A stretch of DNA of 64,000 bases from Actinomycetota bacterium (GTDB lineage: Bacteria > Actinomycetota > Geothermincolia > Geothermincolales > RBG-13-55-18), in contig JACIXC010000005.1 of NCBI GenBank assembly GCA_014360655.1, positions 1 to 64,000 on the forward strand, given 5' to 3'. Each line of letters starts with the position of its first letter. Position 1 is the stretch's first letter. Positions 2,846 to 58,566 of this stretch are shown here, one piece after another. Made by a program: the position numbers and the translations under genes. The notes under the pieces are model-generated. The model worked only from the letters and a program-made list of their open reading frames with translations, was not told the origin of the DNA and searched no databases.

Positions 2846-3736
2846 ATGCGAAACCTCGAGCGCAGGGATACCGGGGGGGATGTCGTCCCGGCTTCTCCCG
2901 CCTCCTTCAGGGCCTTCTGGCCGCTGTTGAGGGACAGCCATCTTTTCCGCAACCGCCGCGACTTCCTCGCCTTCATGGGCAGCCACAACGGTAGGATATT
3001 CCTCCTCTCCCTGCACGGCCACCCCGCCTCGCCTTTCGTCCTTACCGGGAACTGGCGCTGCCGGTGCGACATCTCAGCCCTTTGGTACACGAGGGCGTGG
3101 GGGGAGGAGAGGAGGCGGCTGGTGCTGCATGCATGCGAGGCGTGCCTGGAGGAGGGCGCGGAGAGTTTTATCACCAGGCCCCTGTGCGAGGAGGAGGCGG
3201 AGGAGTTCTCCTCGTGGGGGTTCCGTACCCTCGCGCGCGTGGTCGTCCTCGAAAAGGAGCTGTGCGGCAGGCCGGAACCGCCCACCTGGTTGCGGGGGGT
3301 GCGCCTGCGGCGTTTCCGGCCCGGGGACCTCTCGCGGGTACTGCAGGTCGACGCCGAAGCCTTTGACGAATTCTGGAGCCTTGACCGACGCACGCTGCGC
3401 AACGTGGCCGAGTCCTGCCACAGCAACGTGTTCCTCGTCGCCGCGAAGGGTGACGAGACGTTGGGGTACGCCGTGGGAGGCGTCAACGGGCGCCTCGCTT
3501 ACCTGCAAAGGCTTGGCGTGCACCCTTCCGAGCAGGGGAAGGGGGTGGGCGAGATGCTCTCCTCCGGCATGCTGTGCGCCTTCCGGGCCCTGGGTGCCGC
3601 CCTGGTTTCCGTCAACACGCAGGAGGACAACCAACGCGCCTTGTCCCTCTACCATAAACTGGGATTCAAGGAAACGGGGGATCGCAGGTATATCATGTGC
3701 CGCGACCGCCGGGGCGGCCCGAGGAGCGCGACATGA
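2846..3736 (+). CDS. GNAT-family N-acetyltransferase
   Basis: 296 residues. The C-terminal half (from about residue 150) is a GNAT fold: VRLRRFRPGDLSRVLQVD opens it, the motif A region is LQRLGVHPSEQGKGVGEML (Q-G-x-G-x-G/A acetyl-CoA loop), and it closes with N-x-x-A-L-S-L-Y-H-K-L-G-F. The N-terminal half (residues 1-140) also looks like a degenerate GNAT repeat without the loop. The ATG at 2846 follows AAAGGAAG, and a TTG lies directly before it. The stop overlaps the next ATG by four bases, so the gene is translationally coupled to the large protein upstream of murJ. The substrate is unknown; a peptidoglycan or peptide amine would suit the neighbours. Confidence 0.8.
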   Translation: MRNLERRDTGGDVVPASPASFRAFWPLLRDSHLFRNRRDFLAFMGSHNGRIFLLSLHGHPASPFVLTGNWRCRCDISALWYTRAWGEERRRLVLHACEACLEEGAESFITRPLCEEEAEEFSSWGFRTLARVVVLEKELCGRPEPPTWLRGVRLRRFRPGDLSRVLQVDAEAFDEFWSLDRRTLRNVAESCHSNVFLVAAKGDETLGYAVGGVNGRLAYLQRLGVHPSEQGKGVGEMLSSGMLCAFRALGAALVSVNTQEDNQRALSLYHKLGFKETGDRRYIMCRDRRGGPRSAT

Positions 3737-5772
3737 GGCGTCGCCTGTCCTCCTTGCCATCCCTCCTGCTCACAGCCGTTTTCCTCGCGTTTTCCCTTTT
3801 TCCATCCCTCTTTCCTTCCCGCGGCGCCGTGGCACAGGAGGCGACTGCGGCGGTCTCGGCGTACACGACGTCGTACGCCTACGCGGCGGGGGAGAAGGTC
3901 AACCTGGAAGTTGACATGAGCGTCCCGCTGGAGCTCCGTGACGAGGACCTGGTGGTGGAGCTGCTCGTCTACTCCACCGCCATCACCCGCTCCTACCTCG
4001 CCTCCTTCCGCGAGGAAACCCGCCGCTATCCCCTGTTCACGCGCAGGCTCGCCACCATCAAGCCCGAGAACGAGCTGGGGCACGGGTCATACGAGATAGA
4101 GCCCTCCTCGTGGGGGCTGAAGGCCGGCGTCTACCCTTACGAGGTGAGGCTGAGAAGGAAGGGGGAAACCATCGCTTCCGACCTTAATTTCCTCGTGATC
4201 ATGAGCCGCGACGCCGGCTATCCCCTCAACCTCTCCCTCCTCTGGACACTGGACTTCCTCCCACCCCAGGACGCCCTGGGCAACACCCTTGACGGGGGGC
4301 TGGCCGCCGCCTGTTCCCCGTCGCAGCAGGCGCCGGGGTTCCTCTTCTCGCTCGTGAAGACCCTCGCAGACAGGCCCGCGCTGCGCAGCAGCTTCGTCAT
4401 CCCGCCCTTCATCTACCAGCAGATGGAAACCATGGCCGGGAAACCCGACGCGGAAAAGGGGGAGGCGGGGAGGGGCGCGGAGTCGATACTCGCTTCCTTG
4501 CGGCGCCTGCTGGAAAGCGAGCAGGTGGACGTGGTGGGCACCACCTACTCCTTCTGCGACCTGGACCTGTTCAACTCGCTGGGCTGGGCGGGCGAGGTGG
4601 AGGAACAGATGGCACGGGGCATGGCGGACATGACGGAAAGCGGCATACAGCCCGCGGGTTTCGTATCCCCCGATTTTCGGCTCACGGATCCCCTCCTTCA
4701 GCTGATGGCGGGAAAAGGGGTGGCTTTCACTGTGGCCACGGAGGGGGCACTGCAGGCCAGCTCCGCGGGACGACAGCTCCTGGAGGGGACCTCCATCTCT
4801 CAACCGGTGCGTTTCGCGGCCTCCAACGGGCAGCAGATCACGGGTTTCGTCCGCGACACTGCCCTCTACGAATATCTCCGGACGAATCCGCCGGGCGATT
4901 CCCGCCACGTCATACAGACCATAGTGGCCGAGCTGGCGGTGTTGCAAAGGGAGAAGCCCTACGCCATCCGCTCCTGCGTCCTCGCCTTCCCCCCCTCATT
5001 CCTTCCCGACCGGGAATTCCTGGAAGGGTTCTACGGGGCGCTGGACGGGTGCCCCTGGCTGCAGACCCGCCGCCTCGAGGAATTGAGCCACGACCAGTTC
5101 CCCGTCGAGGGGGTGGTGGTGCAACCGCCGGAGTACACCGCTGACGGCTCCGAGTACGCGCTGCGCCTGGCCGCCATCCGCGACCAGGCGGCCGCGCTGT
5201 CACGGGCCATCGTGCCGGAAGATCACCCCCTGTCCCGCGAGCTCGCCCGCCTGGTGCTCCTGGGCATGCATCACCGCTTCAGCGACGGCGGCGACGTGAA
5301 CGCGGCCACCAGCTTCCTCGCCAGCTTGGGCGACCTCATGCGGGGCGAGCTCTCCAAGATCTCCATCGGGCGCAAGCGCTCCGTCACCCTTTCCAGCACG
5401 GAGGGCAAGCTCAGCGTGGACGTCACCAGCAACCTGGACTTTCCCGTCCGCGCTACCCTCAGGCTGGAAAACGCCAGCCTCACCTTCCCGGAGGGCGCCA
5501 GGATGGAGGTACAGATCGAGCCGCGGGAAAACCGCTTCGTCACCTCCGTAAGCACCCCCCGCAAAGGCTCTTTCCTGGTGAAGATCGCGCTTGAGATCGA
5601 CGGGCTGGTCATCGACGAGACCACCACCGCCGTAAACACCTCCATCATCAATACCCTCGCCATCATCCTCCTGATCTGCCTGACCGCGCTGGTCGCCCTC
5701 TCCCTTCTCGTGCGCCGGATTTCCCGCAGCATCAGGGGGGGTAAACACGCGAGAGGGAGGAACGCCAGGTGA
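3733..5772 (+). CDS. Large exported, C-terminally anchored protein upstream of murJ (DUF6049-like)
   Basis: 679 residues. A signal peptide is visible at the N-terminus (RRRLSSLPSLLLTAVFLAFS, then a cleavable A-V-A-Q-E). The body is a long extracytoplasmic domain and a single helix near the C-terminus (IINTLAIILLICLTALVALS) is followed by a basic tail, giving a type I membrane topology. The central part, with LLWTLDFLPPQDALGN and Y-S-F-C-D-L-D, resembles the poorly characterised DUF6049-type proteins encoded next to murJ in many Actinobacteria. I place it there by position and layout, not by a search. Four-base overlaps with both neighbours mark an operon. A role in cell-envelope assembly is inferred. 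Confidence 0.65.
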   Translation: MRRRLSSLPSLLLTAVFLAFSLFPSLFPSRGAVAQEATAAVSAYTTSYAYAAGEKVNLEVDMSVPLELRDEDLVVELLVYSTAITRSYLASFREETRRYPLFTRRLATIKPENELGHGSYEIEPSSWGLKAGVYPYEVRLRRKGETIASDLNFLVIMSRDAGYPLNLSLLWTLDFLPPQDALGNTLDGGLAAACSPSQQAPGFLFSLVKTLADRPALRSSFVIPPFIYQQMETMAGKPDAEKGEAGRGAESILASLRRLLESEQVDVVGTTYSFCDLDLFNSLGWAGEVEEQMARGMADMTESGIQPAGFVSPDFRLTDPLLQLMAGKGVAFTVATEGALQASSAGRQLLEGTSISQPVRFAASNGQQITGFVRDTALYEYLRTNPPGDSRHVIQTIVAELAVLQREKPYAIRSCVLAFPPSFLPDREFLEGFYGALDGCPWLQTRRLEELSHDQFPVEGVVVQPPEYTADGSEYALRLAAIRDQAAALSRAIVPEDHPLSRELARLVLLGMHHRFSDGGDVNAATSFLASLGDLMRGELSKISIGRKRSVTLSSTEGKLSVDVTSNLDFPVRATLRLENASLTFPEGARMEVQIEPRENRFVTSVSTPRKGSFLVKIALEIDGLVIDETTTAVNTSIINTLAIILLICLTALVALSLLVRRISRSIRGGKHARGRNAR

Positions 5773-18590: not shown

Positions 18591-19116
18591 CGGTCCTGCC
18601 CTGCACGGCCATTCCCGTGAAACGTGCCAGGGCGCGGGCGCCGAGCACCGGTAAAGCGGCGTCGGTCCTTCTCCTGCTTCCGGCGTCCGCGCCCGTCGGT
18701 TCATCGCCGGGAAATACGGGCGGGGACGGCGGGCGATCCATGGCCGGGGCCGAAAAGAGATGCCGTGACGTCTTGGTGGGCGCTTTAAGATTGACAAGGG
18801 TCGAGATACCATCCTCCCATCCTGATAATAACGGCCAGGCAAGGAAGAAAGGTGATCCCTCAAACGTTCAACCCATCCTCCCTGGTGCTTAGGTGAGTCA
18901 AGGTAGCGAAAGGCAGCGACGATGTCGATGTAATAACTGTGAAGCCGGGGTTCGATCCAGGGGAAGCCCCTTTGTTCAAGCGCGCTCCAGTGTTTATGAT
19001 GTATTAGGACCAGTGATGGGGCCGGGTCGGGCATGAGCGCCCGGCAACGCGAGGTTCGGGCACGAAGGCGTGGCGGGGTTGCCACCCGCGAGAGAGGAAG
19101 AAACGAGTGTAAGGTC
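18591..19116. other. Intergenic region between RCC1 copy A and selA
   Basis: 526 bp. It holds the insertion-sequence remnant at 18761-18930. Long antisense frames in this stretch are shadows of the repeats. No tRNA or convincing small gene is seen. A TTGACA at 18791 lacks a -10 at the right distance. The selA promoter is not obvious. Confidence 0.5.
18761..18930 (+). mobile_element. Degenerate insertion-sequence end (copy 1 of 3)
   Basis: Read on the minus strand, this segment aligns base-for-base in long stretches with 37561-37808. Shared blocks are CTTTCTTCCTTG, CAGGATG, GGT-TCTC, AAAGCGCC and CCTAAGCA-CAG-GAGGA. The part matching the transposase start is ruined: the start codon has become ACG and a stop lies nine codons in. 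It is therefore an old terminal fragment of the same element. Confidence 0.6.
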
Positions 19117-20544
19117 ATGGACAAGAAGGAATACCTGCGGCGGCTTTCCTCGGTGAACGACCTCATCCAGGCCGTCTACCGCAGCCGCCTCATGGGCAAC
19201 AGGGCGGTCCCGAGGGAGCTGGTCACGGAGGCCTCGCGCGCCGTTCTCGAGGGTGTGCGGGAGGCCATCCTGGCCGCCAAGGACGAGATGGCCCTGGAAA
19301 ATATTACCATAGACACCGAGGAGCTCGTCTCGCTGGTGGAAAGGGAGGTGGAGGAGAGGATCAGGCCCAGCCTGCGGCGGGTGATCAACGCCACGGGGGT
19401 GGTCATACACACCAACCTGGGAAGGTCCCCCCTCTCCGGGGCGGCCCTGCAGGCCCTGCAGACGGCGGGAGCCCACTACACCAACCTCGAGTTCCGCCTC
19501 GAGGACGGCGCGCGGGGGTCGCGCCAGTTCCACCTGCGCAGGATACTGCGCGAGCTGACGGGCGCGGAATCCGCCCTGGTGGTCAACAACAACGCCGCCG
19601 CCGTGCTCCTTGCCCTCACCGTTCACGCCAAGGGTCGCGAGGTCATCGTCAGCCGGGGACAGCTCATCGAGATCGGGGGCTCCTTCCGCCTCCCCGACGT
19701 CATGGCCCAGAGCGGCGCCCGCCTGGTGGAGGTGGGCACCACCAACAAGACCTACCTGGATGACTACCGCCGGGCCATAAACGAGGACACGGCCATGATA
19801 CTGCGCGCCCATCCCAGCAATTACCGCATCATGGGCTTCACGGCGGAGGTGGGTATCGGAGAGCTGGCCGGCCTCGCCCACGAGCACGGCCTGGTCCTCC
19901 TGGATGACCTGGGAAGCGGGGTCTACTTGGACCTCTCCCGCCACGGCCTTTCTTACGAGCCCACCGTAAGGCGCTCCCTGGAGGAGGGGGCGGACCTGGT
20001 CTGCTTCAGCGGGGACAAGCTCCTGGGGGGCCCACAGGCCGGCATCGTGCTGGGGAGGGAGGAGCTGGTGGAAGCCATGGCCCGCCACCCCCTGGCCCGG
20101 GCCCTGCGCGTGGACAAGCTCACCATCGCCGCCTTGGAAGCCACCCTGCTGCAGTACCTGGACCCGGAGCGCGCCCTGTCGGAGATCCCCACCCTGGCCA
20201 TGCTCACCGCCGACGGGGAGACCCTCCGCAAGCGGGCCCGCAGGCTGGCCGGAAAACTGGCCTCCGCCTGCCCCTTCCTGGCGGTGGAGGTGGAGGAAGA
20301 CGTATCGCGCGCCGGCGGGGGCGCGCTTCCCCTGGAAGATATTCCCACATGGGTGGTGGCGGTGAGCTCGCAGGACCACAAGATCCCGGCCTTGGAGGAG
20401 AGCCTGCGCCGGAGCGACCCTCCCGTCATCGCGCGCATCAGGGAAAACCGCCTCATCCTGGACGTGCGCACGGTTAGCGACGAGGAGATCCCCCTCGTCG
20501 TGGAGGCCTTCCGCGCCGCCGGGGGAGAAACGAAAACGGAATAA
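19117..20544 (+). CDS. selA: L-seryl-tRNA(Sec) selenium transferase
   Basis: 475 residues, normal length. SelA is a PLP enzyme that converts seryl-tRNA-Sec to selenocysteyl-tRNA-Sec using selenophosphate. Visible landmarks are [18 protein letters not shown] after the N-terminal tRNA-binding domain, [13 protein letters not shown], the [14 protein letters not shown] substrate loop, [14 protein letters not shown], and the PLP lysine in [14 protein letters not shown]. The ATG at 19117 is taken because the frame upstream lacks family features. The gene ends six bases before selB. Confidence 0.95.
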
Positions 20545-20549
20545 GGGGA

Positions 20550-22469
20550 ATGAAGAATTTCATCATCGGGACCGCCGGCCACATCGACCACGGGAAGACC
20601 GAGCTCGTCAAGGCGCTCACGGGCGTCGACACCGACCGCCTCAAGGAGGAAAAGGAGCGGGGCATATCCATCGAGCTGGGCTTCGCAGAGCTGGAGCTGG
20701 CCGGGGGCGTCACCGCGGGGGTGGTGGACGTCCCCGGCCACGAGCATTTCGTGAAGAACATGCTGGCGGGGGCCACCGGCTTCGACCTGGTGCTGCTGGT
20801 GGTCGCCGCCGACGACGGCGTGATGCCCCAGACGGTGGAGCACCTGGCCATCGTGGACCTCCTGGGCGTCAGCGACGGGGTGGTGGCCATCACCAAGGCG
20901 GACCTGGTGGACGAGGACATGCTCGCCCTGGTCAAGGAGGACATCGCCGCCACCCTTGCGGGCACGGCTCTGGAAGGCGCTGAGGTGGTGGTCACCTCCA
21001 GCCGCACCGGGCAGGGGCTGGACGAGCTGCGCCGGGCCCTGCTCGCAGCCTCGCAGAAGCTGAGGGCGAGGGACGGCGAGGGCCCCTTCCGCCTGCCCGT
21101 GGACCGCGTATTCACCCTCAGGGGGATAGGCACGGTGGTGACCGGCACCCTCTGGGAGGGAAGCGTGGCCGACGGCGAAGAGGCCGTCATACAGCCCCAG
21201 GGCAGGAAAGTGCGGGTGCGCAACGTGCAGGTTCACGGAAAGGACGTGGACAGGGCCCTCGCCGGCCAGAGGGTGGCCATGAACCTCCCGGGAATGTCCA
21301 AGGAGGAGATAGCGCGCGGGGACGTCGTCGCTTCTCCCGGTTTCCTGCAGCCCACCCTCATGGCGGACGCCCTCCTCCACCTCCTGGACAACGCCCCCTG
21401 GACCCTGAAGAACCGCGCGCGGGTCCGTTTCCACCACGGGACCCGAGAGGTCATGGCACGGGTGGTGCTCCTGGGCGGCAGGGAAGAGCTGCGGCCGGGG
21501 GAGAGCTGCTACGTCCAGCTGCGCCTGGAAAGGCCGGGGCTGGTGCGCTACGGGGACCGCTTCATACTGCGCAGCTATTCCCCCGTGACCACCATCGGGG
21601 GGGGACGCATCCTCGACGCCCACCCGCGCAAGCACCGCCAGCACAGCCGCGACATCCTCGACGCCCTGCAGGCGAGGGAGCGGGGTCGGGCCGGCGACCT
21701 GGCGCTGCTGGCGGTGGAGGAAAGGGGGCTTCCCGTGTCCTTCCAGGAGCTCGTGCGCCGCACGGAGATCAAGGAGAGCGCGCTGCGTGAGGCACTCGCA
21801 AGCCTTCTGGCTGAGAACGGGCTCGTGGAGATCCCAGGCGACAGCGGCCCCCTGTACGTCACCCCCGCACTGCTAAAGGGGCTCCGGGAGCGCATGGCGC
21901 GCCTCACGAGCGAACTCCATGCCGCCAACCCCCTGAAGGCCGGGGTGGAAAAGGAGGTCTTGCGGCAGAGGCTGGGGGGGGACATGGAAGCGGATGTATT
22001 CGAGGCGCTGTTGAGGGACGCGGTGGGCGCGGGAGGGTTGGAGGTGGAGGCGGGGAAGGTGCGGGTCAAGGGCGGGGGAAGGATGCTCTCCGCGGAGGAA
22101 GCGGCCCTGATGGACAGGCTGCGGCGGGAGATAAGGGAGGGGGGTTTTTCACCTCCCCTTTTCAAGGAACTCCAGGAAAAGATGGGCCTGGAGAGGAACA
22201 AGCTGCGCGACCTCATCTCCATCCTCCTCGAGGAGGGCGAGATCGAGCAGGTCAACCCGGAGTTCTTCCTGGCCGCGGGAAGGCTCGCCGAGGCGGAGGG
22301 GCGCATCCTCTCCTTTCTCTCCGAAAAGGGGCGGCTGGGAGTGGCCGACGTGCGGGAGATGCTGGGCGCCAGCCGCAAGTATGCCATCCCCCTCCTGGAG
22401 TACTTCGACCGCAGGAAGGTCACGCGCCGCGAGGGGGATTACCGGGTCCCCTTCAGGGCAGGTGCGTGA
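20550..22469 (+). CDS. selB: Selenocysteine-specific elongation factor SelB
   Basis: 639 residues, normal length. SelB is a GTPase that carries Sec-tRNA to ribosomes paused at UGA by binding the adjacent SECIS hairpin. Domain order: G domain with [19 protein letters not shown] (P-loop), [19 protein letters not shown] (switch I), [17 protein letters not shown] (switch II) and ITKADLVDE; then EF-Tu-like beta barrels (residues about 175-340); then winged-helix domains at the C-terminus (about 370-639), which bind the mRNA hairpin. The ATG is six bases after the selA stop. The tRNA-Sec gene follows within 200 bp, so selA-selB-selC form one locus. Confidence 0.95.
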
Positions 22470-22647: not shown

Positions 22648-22745
22648 GTGGAGATGCATCCGTCCTGGTGGGCGGCCCGGTCTTCAAAACCGGTGCGGCG
22701 TCGTAACGGGCGCCGGGTAAGTTCGATTCTTACGCATCTCCGCCA
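22648..22745 (+). tRNA. selC: tRNA-Sec(UCA), CCA encoded
   Basis: 98 nt including CCA. The acceptor stem has eight pairs (GGAGATGC with GCATCTCC), discriminator G and encoded CCA. The D stem has six pairs (CCGTCC/GGGCGG) with a four-base TGGT loop. The anticodon stem CCGGT/ACCGG encloses loop CTTCAAA with anticodon TCA. A long variable arm (GGCGTC/GGCGCC) precedes a five-pair T stem with TTCGATT. The 8+5 stack and six-pair D stem are the hallmarks of bacterial tRNA-Sec. Confidence 0.97.
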
Positions 22746-22949: not shown

Positions 22950-23885
22950 ATGAACACCAAGAGCCTGAGGGTTTTCCTGGAGGTGGCACGCACCGGGAGC
23001 TTCTCCACCGCTGCCCGCAACCTGGGCCTCACGCAACCCGCGATCAGCTTCCATATCCAGTCCCTGGAAAAGGAGTACGGGAGCAGGCTGGTGGACCGTT
23101 CCACCGGACGCTGCCGCCTGACGGATGCTGGCCGTTCCCTGAGCAAGTACGCGCACCGCATATTGAAAGCGGAGGAAGAGCTGGTGCGCGAGATGGAGGG
23201 TAGGCGCAGCGAAGCCTGCGGGCCTCTCCTCGTCGCCGCCAGCAACATACCCGGCGAATACATCATGCCCCGTGTCCTCTCCCTTTACCGGCAGCGCCAC
23301 CCCCTGGTCGAACCCCGCCTCTCCGTCGCCGACTCGGAAATGGTGCTGGAGAGCGTGCGCGCAGGGGAAGCCGACCTGGGTTGCGTGGGCTTCCGCGAGG
23401 AGGACGAGCGGCTCGTCTACGGGGATCTCTGCGAAGACCGGCTGGTCTTCATCGCCTCCGACCACCACCCCCTGGCGGAGAAGAAACGCGTGGAAGCGGG
23501 GGACCTCGCCGGACAGACCCTCGTCCTGAGGGAGGAGGGATCCGGCACCCGCTCCCACATGCTGCGCATACTGTCCGACCTGGGCCTGGACGCGGCGGGC
23601 ATGGACTGCATGGTGCTGGGGAGCACCATGGCGGTGATCCAGGCCGTCGCCGCCGGGGCGGGGATCTCCCTTTCCTCGCTCTGGGCGGTGGAGCCTTACC
23701 TCCGGCTGGGGAGAGTGCGAGCCCTCAAGGTCAGGGGCCGCGAGCTGAGAAGGGACTTTCATTACGTAATGCTCCGCCGGCGACCCGCCGGCCTGGCGGC
23801 CACGGCCCTCGTCCACCTCATCGAGGAGATGAGGCCTGCGCTGGAGGAGACCCTGGCTTCCTACCGGGAGATCGCCGGCCGATAA
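22950..23885 (+). CDS. LysR-family regulator next to the selenium genes
   Basis: 311 residues. The N-terminus is a standard LysR helix-turn-helix: FLEVARTGSFSTAARNLGLTQPAISFHIQSLE. The rest is a periplasmic-binding-protein-like effector domain (from about residue 90). LysR regulators adjacent to selenium genes form a recognised group annotated as selenium metabolism-associated; position and sequence fit that group, but the ligand is unknown. The ATG is preceded by a G-rich stretch (CGGGGGTACCC) rather than a clear Shine-Dalgarno. Candidate targets are the palindrome at 22507 and the operon on the opposite strand. Confidence 0.85.
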   Translation: MNTKSLRVFLEVARTGSFSTAARNLGLTQPAISFHIQSLEKEYGSRLVDRSTGRCRLTDAGRSLSKYAHRILKAEEELVREMEGRRSEACGPLLVAASNIPGEYIMPRVLSLYRQRHPLVEPRLSVADSEMVLESVRAGEADLGCVGFREEDERLVYGDLCEDRLVFIASDHHPLAEKKRVEAGDLAGQTLVLREEGSGTRSHMLRILSDLGLDAAGMDCMVLGSTMAVIQAVAAGAGISLSSLWAVEPYLRLGRVRALKVRGRELRRDFHYVMLRRRPAGLAATALVHLIEEMRPALEETLASYREIAGR

Positions 23886-31232: not shown

Positions 31233-34200
31233 TTACTTCACCTTCCTTAGGTTCACCAGGAATGCCTTGGATTCGGGTATGGTGGTGTTGGCGTCTCCCA
31301 CGTGCGGCGTGAGCTGGTTGGCGGCGTAGTTCTTCTTGGACATGCCGTCCCGCTCCGGCCCGCCGGTGGCAAGGCCGATGAACCCGTAATGCCAGGTCAT
31401 CCCCACTATGTGGACCTTCCTGGTGCTGCCGTTGTCCCCGATCTCCAGGGGCTTCAGGCGCACGGTGACCACGGCCACGCCCTGCACCTTGCCGCGCTTG
31501 CTCTCCACCTCCACCAGGTCGCCGCTCTTGATGCCCAGCTCGTCGGCGAGTTCCTTGGAGATCTCGACGAAGTGCTCAGGCATGGCCTCGACCAGCCAGG
31601 AGTTGTTGCGGGTCATCTGTCCCGCCTGCCAGTGCTCGGTCACCCGGTAGGTGGTGCCCACGTAGGGGAACCGCTCGTCCCCCACCTCGGCGAAGCCCCA
31701 TCTCTCGGGCTCGTTCTTGGCAGAGGGCCACTCGAGCACCGCCGCCGGGTTGTTCTGCACCGAGGAGAGCATGTTCTTCACCGGGCTTTCCCGCGGCTCG
31801 TAGTGCTCGGGGAAGGGGCCCTCCACCAGGGAGTTGGAGAAGAGGCGCGCCACCAGGGCGCCCGGCTCCCGGTTCAGGAAGTAAGGATTGGCACCCGAAC
31901 GAGTGCGCATGGTGGCCTTGCCCTTGAGGTCCGCGGGGAAGGCCGCGTCCGTGCTGGCCTGGGCGTAGAAGTCGGGCACGTCGTTCTTCATCCCCAGGGT
32001 GTCGTCGTCCTTGAAGGTGAAGAGGGCCTTGTCCGGCGCGAAGGGCTTACCCGACCAATCACAGGCGCAGCGGTTGTAGATGATCCTGCGGTTCAGCGGC
32101 CATGCCCAGGCCCAGTTGGGTGCGGTCCCCAGGTCGATCATCCTGGCGTCGGACGGCGGGTTCTCGGTGTAGATGGTCACCCCGTCCTTGCCCAGCCAGT
32201 AGACCGGGGTCTTCTGGAAGTGCCACTGCGCCTTGTTGAAGGGGATGCCGTTCCATTCCTTGGCCTGCTTGTCCCGGGGGATCTTGGTCTTGCCGTCCTC
32301 CCCCTTGGGGAGCTGGCCCTCGATGCCAAGGATCTTGGCCGCGGTCTCCACGTCGGCGTCGCTGGCCCACTGGCCGCAGTAGATCCAGGTACCGCTCACC
32401 GTGGAGCCGTCGTCCTTGAGATTGGCGAAGCTGGTGACGGGCTTCTTGAAAGCCGCCTCCCAGGAGAACTCGCCCTCCGGCCAGGTGAAGCCGCTGATCT
32501 CCATCTGCACCTGGTCCAGGTCGGGCTCGCCGTGCTCGTCCTCGTCGTAGGCCCAGAAGAGCTCGGTCACGCATTCCTTGCCCTTGCCCCCCTCGGCCTT
32601 GTAGAGCTCCTTCACCGCCTTCATGATCTGGTGCATCATCCAGCCGTCGGGCTCGGCGTCGCCGGGCGGCTCCACCGCCTTCCAGCGGTACTGGGCGAGC
32701 CTTCCTGAGTTGGACACCGAGCCGGGCTTCTCTACCGAGGAGGCGGCGGGAAGCACCCACACCTCGGTCCGGATGTCCTTGGGCTCCACGCCGGGGCGGC
32801 GCCAGAAGTTCATGGATTCCGTCTCCCAGAGGTCGGCGGCCACGAACCACTCCAGCTTGTCCATGGCCTCAGCCTCCAGGTTGGAGCAGGCCCCGCCCAC
32901 CACCGGGTTCTGGCCCCAGGCGATGAACCCCTTGATGATGCCCGCGTACATGTCCTCGAAGAGGCCGATGTGGGTGTAGTTCTTGCCCTTCTTCACCTTG
33001 GGGTGCAGGTCGTAGGCCTTGTCCAGCCCGTTTGCCTTGGCGTATGGGCCGTAGTAGGCCATGAGGTAGCTGTTGAAGAAGCGGGGTTGCCAGGACCATA
33101 TGCCCACCTTGGGGGTGGTCTTCTCCAGGTACTTGGCGTGATCCGGGTGGTCGGTGGAGTTGGGCACTGTCATGTACCCGGTGAGGATATGCGAGAGGAG
33201 CCCGAAGTCCGTGGACCCCTGCACGTTGGACTCGCCGCGCAGGGCGTTGATGCCCCCTCCCGGTAGGCCGGTGTTGCCCAGCAGAGCCTGCAGGATGGCG
33301 AAGGCGCGTATCTTTTCCGTCCCGAAGGTGAACTGGGTGAGGCCCATGGCGTACATGAGGTTACCCGTCTTTTCGCGCTTGTGGGTGATGCCCACGTAGC
33401 ACTCGGCTATCTCCTTGAACTTGGCGGGGTCCATGCCGCAGACCTTGGCCACCACGCTGTTCTCGCCCTCATAGGTATAACGGGCTACGTGCTCCTTGAG
33501 CTTGGCGAAGACCGTGCCCGCGATGGCCTCGTCGGGGTTGGGTATGAAATTACCGTTGGCGTCCACCGGCCCCACGGGAACTCCCCGCCCCTTGAAGGTC
33601 GGGTCCTCGGCGATGGGGATGAGCTGCACGCGTATGGGCTCCCCCGTCGCGGGATCGGTCTGGTAGGTCCAGGTCTTGGTGTCGTACTTCCTCTTCTCCT
33701 TGTCGTAGCCGCTGAAGTAACCGTCCAGCTCCGCCGGGCCCTTGTAATCCGGGTTCACCAGGATGGGGGCGTTGGTGTAGTTCTGGACGTACTCCCAGTT
33801 GATGTAGTTCTTGTCGATGGCGTACTTGATGAGGGCGTTGAAGAAGGCGATGTCCGTCCCCGGCCGGATGAAGGAGAAGAGGTCGGCGCGGGCGGCGGAG
33901 CGGGTGAAACGCGGGTCCACCACGATGATCTTGGCGCCGTGATCCTCCCGGGCCTTCTCCAGCCACTTCCAGCTGACGGGATGGTTCTCGCTGGGGTTGG
34001 CGCCGCAGATCATGAAGACGTCGGCGTTCCTGAGGTCCACGTAGTGGTTGGTCATGGCCCCCCGGCCGTACGTGCCGCCGAGACCGGCGACTGTGGCCGA
34101 GTGTCATATGCGGGCCTGGTGCTCTATGTACACCAGGCCGAGGCCGCGGGCGAACTTGGAGGCCAGGTAGCACTCCTCGTTGTCAAGAGCAGCGCCCCCA

Positions 34201-58364: not shown

Positions 58365-58457
58365 TGGAGGGGGGCAGTGGGAATCGAACCCACCCCGGCT
58401 TTTTCACGGCCGGCCTACGGGTTTGCAGCCCGCGGGGGACCCAGTCCCGTACCCCCC
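58365..58457 (-). tRNA. tRNA-Cys(GCA) with tRNA-Sec-like architecture
   Basis: 93 nt with encoded CCA. On the minus strand the acceptor stem has eight pairs (GGGGGGTA with TGCCCCCC, two of them weak), discriminator U and CCA. The D stem GGGAC/GTCCC is 5 bp. The anticodon stem GCGGG/CCCGT encloses loop CTGCAAA, anticodon GCA. The variable region is 23 nt with a CCGGC/GCCGG hairpin, and the T arm GTGGG/CCCAC has loop TTCGATT. U73 and GCA are cysteine identity elements; the 8+5 stack and long variable arm are tRNA-Sec features. tRNAs of this hybrid type (selC*-like or allo-tRNAs) have been reported in bacteria. A normal Cys tRNA may be elsewhere. Confidence 0.85.
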
Positions 58458-58566
58458 AAATGTTGCAAGGTTGCCCTCCAGAACGAAAATATTAATTTAT
58501 TTTATCATTTCTATTATATATTTTTATAATAATATCGCCAGTCTTCGTGCACGCGACAACTCGGGG

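Follow-up and report, generated by a model that had tools for sequence, protein, structure and literature searches.

Why should a genome that encodes tRNA-Sec, SelA and SelB, together with an ordinary cysteine tRNA, also keep a tRNA that combines the identity elements of tRNA-Cys with the body of a tRNA-Sec? The gene in question lies in the window, by which we mean the whole 64,000-nt stretch of DNA that was analysed. The answer that we consider most probable (roughly 80%) is that it encodes a second, specialised cysteine tRNA of the selC* type, by which SelB would deliver cysteine at selenocysteine (Sec) UGA codons. We take tRNA-ReC to be a name for tRNA-Cys of this type and use it below.

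Read 5' to 3' on the minus strand, positions 58365-58457 give GGGGGGUA C GGGAC UGG GUCCC CC GCGGG CUGCAAA CCCGU (23-nt variable arm) GUGGG UUCGAUU CCCAC UGCCCCCC U CCA, in which CUGCAAA is the anticodon loop (Table 1). The initial annotation had described Cys identity on a tRNA-Sec body, with GCA, U73-CCA, an 8-bp acceptor, a 5-bp T stem and a 23-nt arm, and this description is correct to the base. ARAGORN calls a tRNA-Cys(GCA) at 58369-58457 on the minus strand, and a covariance-model comparison, proposed earlier as a check, agrees with the annotated shape: on the same stretch Rfam keeps the tRNA-Sec model (RF01852, 59.3 bits against a gathering score of 47) in preference to the general tRNA model. 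Single-sequence folding was considered as an arbiter of the acceptor length and replaced by covariation. The minimum free energy (MFE) fold has a 7/6 acceptor/T branch, which arises by pairing the last G of the variable arm with U65a in place of A8-U65a; energy alone is ambiguous between 8/5 and 7/6, and the GC-richness of the sequence keeps the folding z-score at only -1.06. Among 101 distinct relatives, 792 of 808 acceptor cells are paired, where shuffles average 606 and never exceed 627; the eighth pair forms in 91 of 101, against a shuffle mean of 77 and a maximum of 84, as A-U, G-C, C-G or U-A. It is this comparative evidence, not energy, that settles the 8-bp acceptor for the tRNA family. 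The 7-bp acceptor that the initial annotation had named as counter-evidence does not survive alignment of the relatives, although the lone MFE fold draws it.

Table 1. Features of the window that bear on the Cys(GCA) tRNA and on Sec decoding
Feature	Coordinates	Strand	Evidence
tRNA-Cys(GCA) of tRNA-Sec shape (probable tRNA-ReC, selC* type)	58365-58457	-	sequence, ARAGORN, Rfam, alignment of relatives
Encoded CCA	58365-58367	-	strand read directly
U73 discriminator	58368	-	strand read directly
Acceptor stem, 5' strand GGGGGGUA, 8 bp, partner 58369-58376	58450-58457	-	sequence and covariation, 101 relatives
Acceptor stem, 3' strand UGCCCCCC	58369-58376	-	sequence and covariation
D arm: 5-bp stem GGGAC/GUCCC, 3-nt loop UGG	58436-58448	-	
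Anticodon GCA (anticodon position 32 in ARAGORN call)	58424-58426	-	
23-nt variable arm, forming a hairpin of its own (CCGGC/GCCGG)	58394-58416	-	sequence, fold
T arm: 5-bp GUGGG/CCCAC, no bulge	58377-58393	-	
AT-rich tract (79% A+T) directly upstream of the tRNA gene, presumed promoter region	58467-58537	-	
selA	19033-20544	+	TIGR00474, 592 bits, cut-off 268
selB (single genomic copy), presumed to carry the Cys(GCA) tRNA	20550-22469	+	TIGR00475, 377 bits, cut-off 242
tRNA-Sec(UCA), ordinary, 8/5, G73	22650-22745	+	ARAGORN, Rfam
Selenium metabolism-associated LysR-family regulator	22950-23885	+	NF040786, 253 bits, cut-off 250
fdhA, a selenoprotein gene of the formate dehydrogenase-N alpha type; its internal UGA (34104-34106) is a likely target codon	31236-34814	-	both halves match TIGR01553
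UGA and SECIS-like hairpin after it, GGUCU in the apical part	34050-34106	-	fold z only -1.14

The genome, which is 99.96% complete, holds the other parts that would be needed. The UCA tRNA-Sec, selA and selB earlier placed in the same window are all real, as judged by tRNA calls and by profile matches above cut-off, and the D arm of this tRNA-Sec has a 6-bp stem and a 4-nt loop. A search for a second, ordinary tRNA-Cys in the genome found one, with acceptor GGCGGCG. There is a single CysRS, of normal full length, and no CysRS* without anticodon domain was found in the genome. The Cys(GCA) tRNA is not adjacent to selB. Two UGA-containing genes had been claimed; fdhA (UGA at 34106) is confirmed, with coding bias on either side of the UGA, and no second UGA-interrupted gene in the 64-kb window is convincing. 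The GGUCU of the fdhA hairpin presumably resembles the SECIS of E. coli fdh. The LysR-family gene that comes after selA-selB-selC scores just above its cut-off and is a candidate regulator of the Sec/Cys balance.

A pattern consisting of a GCA tRNA with a long variable arm and U73-CCA was run over 84,980 species genomes and matched at least 119 stretches; about 20 of the 119 listed are chance matches or other tRNA types. The remaining matches, the window and the class copies make up 103 rows that fold like tRNA-Sec, with 101 distinct sequences. The constancy of GCA and U73 in these roughly 100 relatives is by construction, both being fixed in the pattern; three class members found by Rfam alone, independently of the pattern, are all Cys(GCA) with U73. 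A looser pattern, run over the genome, gave about 500 chance matches and was set aside. Of the relatives that have a name, Candidatus Solincola tengchongensis and S. quzhuomuensis are nearest, which places the window in Candidatus Solincola or close to it (class Geothermincolia, phylum Actinomycetota). Absence from related assemblies would have spoken against the initial annotation, and the gene was found in 9 of the 31 genomes of the class (six matched the pattern and Rfam alone added three). Of 397 Actinomycetota genomes sampled, 14 are carriers: these nine Geothermincolia, four genomes from a second family and a single one from a third. Four related genomes (G017, G024, G026 and G027) have the gene at 96-99% identity amid flanks mostly 66-92% identical (66-75% in three of them, 87-92% in the nearest), so it is not a chance occurrence, and its conservation above that of its flanks indicates purifying selection. 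Because only 9 of the 27 SelB-positive class members were found with the tRNA, it is dispensable.

The neighbours of the gene encode a TPR protein, a B12/radical SAM protein and a DUF5719/Ig protein, none of them known to act on tRNA, and comparison across related loci revealed no conserved partner enzyme beside the tRNA. The neighbourhood at 58-64 kb of the window (B12/radical SAM, DUF5719) recurs in loci L239, L240, L241 and L242, where the orientation and side of the tRNA vary. Searches for a phage or plasmid origin gave no match in either collection. Several further loci are of interest in their own right. L097, from a MAG labelled Actinobacteria, contains a bulged tRNA-ReC of Peptococcaceae type, near-identical to that of L091, which points to transfer or mis-binning. 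L119 / L200 (G021:C105) packs 18 or more tRNA genes into 2.4 kb and is possibly a mobile element; the array also includes a tRNA-like sequence (GCA, U73) whose acceptor has 7 bp and whose variable arm forms a hairpin, and which ARAGORN does not call. More tRNA-Cys(GCA) with long variable arms are present in L112 (Planctomycetaceae, 3515-3610), L175 (Carboxydocella, 1707-1804) and L173 (Obscuribacterales, 4709-4808), with apparent branch forms of 7/5 in L112 and L175 and 8/5 in L173.

The 70 nt upstream of the tRNA have an A+T content of 79%, compared with 34% in the window, which is the highest upstream value among the 42 tRNA genes of the genome (mean 43%, SD 10). A tract of 60-80 nt with extreme A+T also precedes the tRNA in the related loci L115, L133, L239 and L240; its sequence is not conserved across related loci, and the remaining flank is GC-rich. 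A consensus scan of the minus strand yielded neither a sigma-70 site nor a terminator. Judged by composition, the tract is likely a strong or regulated promoter.

The family keeps company with the machinery of Sec insertion. In carrier genomes from many phyla, SelB scored above its family cut-off in 38 of 40, compared with 4 of 10 genomes with chance matches (Fisher P = 3e-4), and SelA in 39 of 40 compared with 4 of 10 (P = 9e-5); these P values ignore relatedness, and the control genomes are few (10) and from other lineages. The two carriers in which SelB was not found (G059 and G070) are MAGs that may be incomplete, and tRNA-Sec(UCA) is present in all 27 carrier genomes whose best tRNA-Sec match was retrieved. 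Within the class alone the association between the tRNA and SelB is not significant (P = 0.30), a comparison without power because 27 of the 31 members are SelB-positive.

Physical linkage was also evident. With the SelB of the window as query, a SelB gene was found near the tRNA in at least 19 of 100 carrier loci, a minimum given that the loci span at most 8 kb; every one of the 19 is downstream of the tRNA in the same orientation, and for 16 the distance is no more than 160 nt. Linkage of this kind has been described in Deltaproteobacteria (PMC7609411), and the carrier loci show it in Nitrospirota, Chloroflexota and Actinomycetota as well. Seven loci outside the groups named in the review have the SelB start 18-157 nt downstream of tRNA-ReC: L080, L078, L100, L171 (Nitrospirota), L151 (Chloroflexota), and L096, L164 (Actinomycetota). 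In the SelB tree, one clade (100/100), of which one row is long-branched, unites ReC-linked SelBs of Deltaproteobacteria, Geothermocultor, an Actinomycetota MAG and an uncultured genome. The Nitrospirota ReC-linked SelBs nest inside other SelBs of that phylum, as expected of a separate duplication, and the topology suggests that ReC-linked SelBs arose at least twice. The SelB of the window groups with the ordinary SelBs of its relatives and, on this topology, is a vertically inherited actinobacterial copy.

All 103 rows can be divided by the form of the T arm into (i) 8/5 without a bulge (62 rows), (ii) 8/5 with a bulge (25) and (iii) 8/4 with a bulge (16). A linked SelB accompanies 14 of the 16 bulged 8/4 tRNAs (for one of the 14, L077, linkage was read from genome coordinates, 1.3 kb apart) compared with 6 of 84 others (P = 9e-11), a correlation that partly reflects shared ancestry of one operon. 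The tRNA of the window belongs to the 8/5 form and has no linked SelB. Its T stem opens with G49-C65 and U50-A64, identical in the genome's own tRNA-Sec, and the shared 8/5 form together with these first two pairs would fit a tRNA obliged to use the same SelB as tRNA-Sec. The two probably share the sole SelB of the genome. A broader picture, offered tentatively and at somewhat below even odds, is that Cys recoding of Sec codons by tRNA-ReC exists in two forms: (i) with its own SelB, gained at least twice (the cross-phylum selB* clade that includes Actinomycetota and the separate Nitrospirota duplication); (ii) as in the window, with an unbulged 8/5 tRNA and one SelB in common with tRNA-Sec, so that two aminoacyl-tRNAs would compete at every Sec UGA, the Cys one being driven by an unusual AT-rich promoter of its own.

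In the mechanism proposed here, the ordinary CysRS of the genome would recognise the GCA anticodon and U73, both of which are reported to be major Cys identity determinants (PMC9976931), and attach cysteine to the tRNA, while U73 and the small D arm would keep SerRS and SelA off it. The 13-bp acceptor/T branch, the long variable arm and the compact D arm would make it a poor substrate of EF-Tu and a substrate of SelB; that a 13-bp branch disfavours the one and favours the other is extrapolated from work on tRNA-Sec. The single SelB would then deliver Cys-tRNA to UGA codons with a downstream SECIS, such as that of fdhA, and UGA would be read despite a G34-A mismatch. Insertion of cysteine would compete with Sec-tRNA-Sec and may be most useful under selenium shortage, the condition in which a role for the CysRS*/SelC* system has been proposed (PMC9437257); the outcome would be a partly active Cys form of the enzyme in place of a truncated one. 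A relative from Desulfotomaculum nigrificans reportedly inserts Cys at Sec UGA codons through SelB and does not interact with EF-Tu (PMC11415595). The earlier view that the function is largely open is too pessimistic, since SelB-mediated recoding of Sec UGA to Cys has been reported for a relative (PMC11415595, PMC7609411). The interpretation given in the initial annotation is partly supported: of the three functions suggested there, a Sec/Cys switch is best supported, whereas the presence of an ordinary tRNA-Cys and the co-occurrence of the family with SelB make decoding of UGC the least likely.

A GCA anticodon on a tRNA-Sec body, with the long variable arm common to SelA and SerRS substrates, would also be expected of a tRNA-Sec with a sense anticodon that is serylated by SerRS, converted by SelA and inserts Sec at UGC/UGU, a type reported in nature (PMC11415595), namely for Aeromonas salmonicida. 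We regard this as very unlikely here: G73, the strongest serylation determinant (PMC9976931), is replaced by U73, the D arm has 5 bp and a 3-nt loop in place of the 6 bp and 4-nt loop seen in the genome's own tRNA-Sec, the genome already encodes a complete tRNA-Sec(UCA), and no UGC-type selenoprotein was seen. The Cys anticodon and discriminator would be accounted for, at marginally longer odds still, by a plain extra Cys isoacceptor delivered by EF-Tu to UGC/UGU. However, the reading of these codons needs no tRNA-ReC gene because the ordinary tRNA-Cys already performs it, and an isoacceptor leaves unexplained both the co-occurrence and downstream linkage with SelB and the 13-bp branch kept by covariation.

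An upstream tract unusual among the tRNA genes of the genome could mean special regulation, and lowered use of EF-Tu is what one would expect of a regulatory or non-ribosomal tRNA, for instance a decoy that occupies SelB or a donor of cysteine outside translation. Nevertheless, the anticodon, U73 and CCA are all intact, no conserved partner enzyme adjoins the gene and a relative is reported to recode UGA (PMC11415595); such a role seems about as improbable as the sense-anticodon tRNA-Sec. The patchy occurrence in the class (9 of 31) would suit a decaying, functionless duplicate of tRNA-Sec, the least credible of the alternatives and one already contradicted by a gene in which every stem is paired, CCA is retained and 96-99% identity persists in three other genomes whose flanks are down to 66-75%. 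Delivery of cysteine by SelB at Sec UGA is thus the reading that we prefer. If it is true, either of two amino acids can be inserted at a Sec UGA codon, with the supply of selenium able to decide between them. The approximately 100 relatives would make the Cys option widespread in anaerobic and hot-spring bacteria, with SelB duplicated for it more than once, and the way in which T-arm shape tracks a linked SelB makes the co-evolution of elongation factor and tRNA directly testable.

Among known systems, the closest is the selC* tRNA-Cys group, reportedly the work of Mukai et al. in 2017 (NAR gkw898) and Vargas-Rodriguez et al. in 2018 (RNA Biol 15:471). The initial annotation had correctly named this group as a relation. 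As the group is described in PMC7609411 and PMC11415595, the tRNA of the window shares with it the GCA anticodon (UCA being the other one used in the group), U73, the 8-bp acceptor and the long variable arm, as well as coexistence with tRNA-Sec, SelA, SelB and an ordinary tRNA-Cys. A 4-bp T stem with a bulged nucleotide 51a has been called the most striking feature of the group (PMC7609411), whereas the T stem of the window tRNA has 5 bp and no 51a bulge. It differs further in its host phylum, Actinomycetota, which is not among the phyla listed for the group in the review consulted, and in having no adjoining selB* or cysS*, with one SelB and one CysRS. Since 62 of 103 relatives share the unbulged 8/5 branch, this appears to be a sub-form and the bulge not a defining trait.

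The selC*-selB*-cysS* operons of Desulfobacterales likewise place Cys identity on a tRNA-Sec body and have a proposed dependence on SelB. They are characterized by a CysRS* without anticodon domain, a UCA anticodon and A1-U72, in contrast to the GCA, G1-C72, ordinary CysRS and shared SelB found here; no second SelB or CysRS* lies beside the window tRNA, the genome having one non-adjacent SelB and one CysRS. The tRNA-Sec(GCA) of Aeromonas salmonicida (Mukai et al. 2016) is similar in having GCA on a tRNA-Sec body. However, it carries Sec, whereas U73 in place of G73 and a D arm shortened from the 6-bp stem used by SerRS and SelA point to Cys in the window. Allo-tRNAs, which are 8/4 and 9/3 Ser tRNAs, also combine an unusual acceptor/T branch with a long variable arm, but the comparison once drawn with them was mistaken: they have Ser identity, varied anticodons and 8/4 or 9/3 branches, and the window tRNA has Cys identity, GCA, U73 and 8/5. 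By its sequence features, the Cys(GCA) tRNA probably works like the selC* tRNA-Cys molecules and is best filed with them, agreeing with them in all features that could be compared apart from the bulged 4-bp T stem, and the Geothermincolales tRNA represents a well-conserved new example of an already known tRNA type in a deep-branching actinobacterial lineage.
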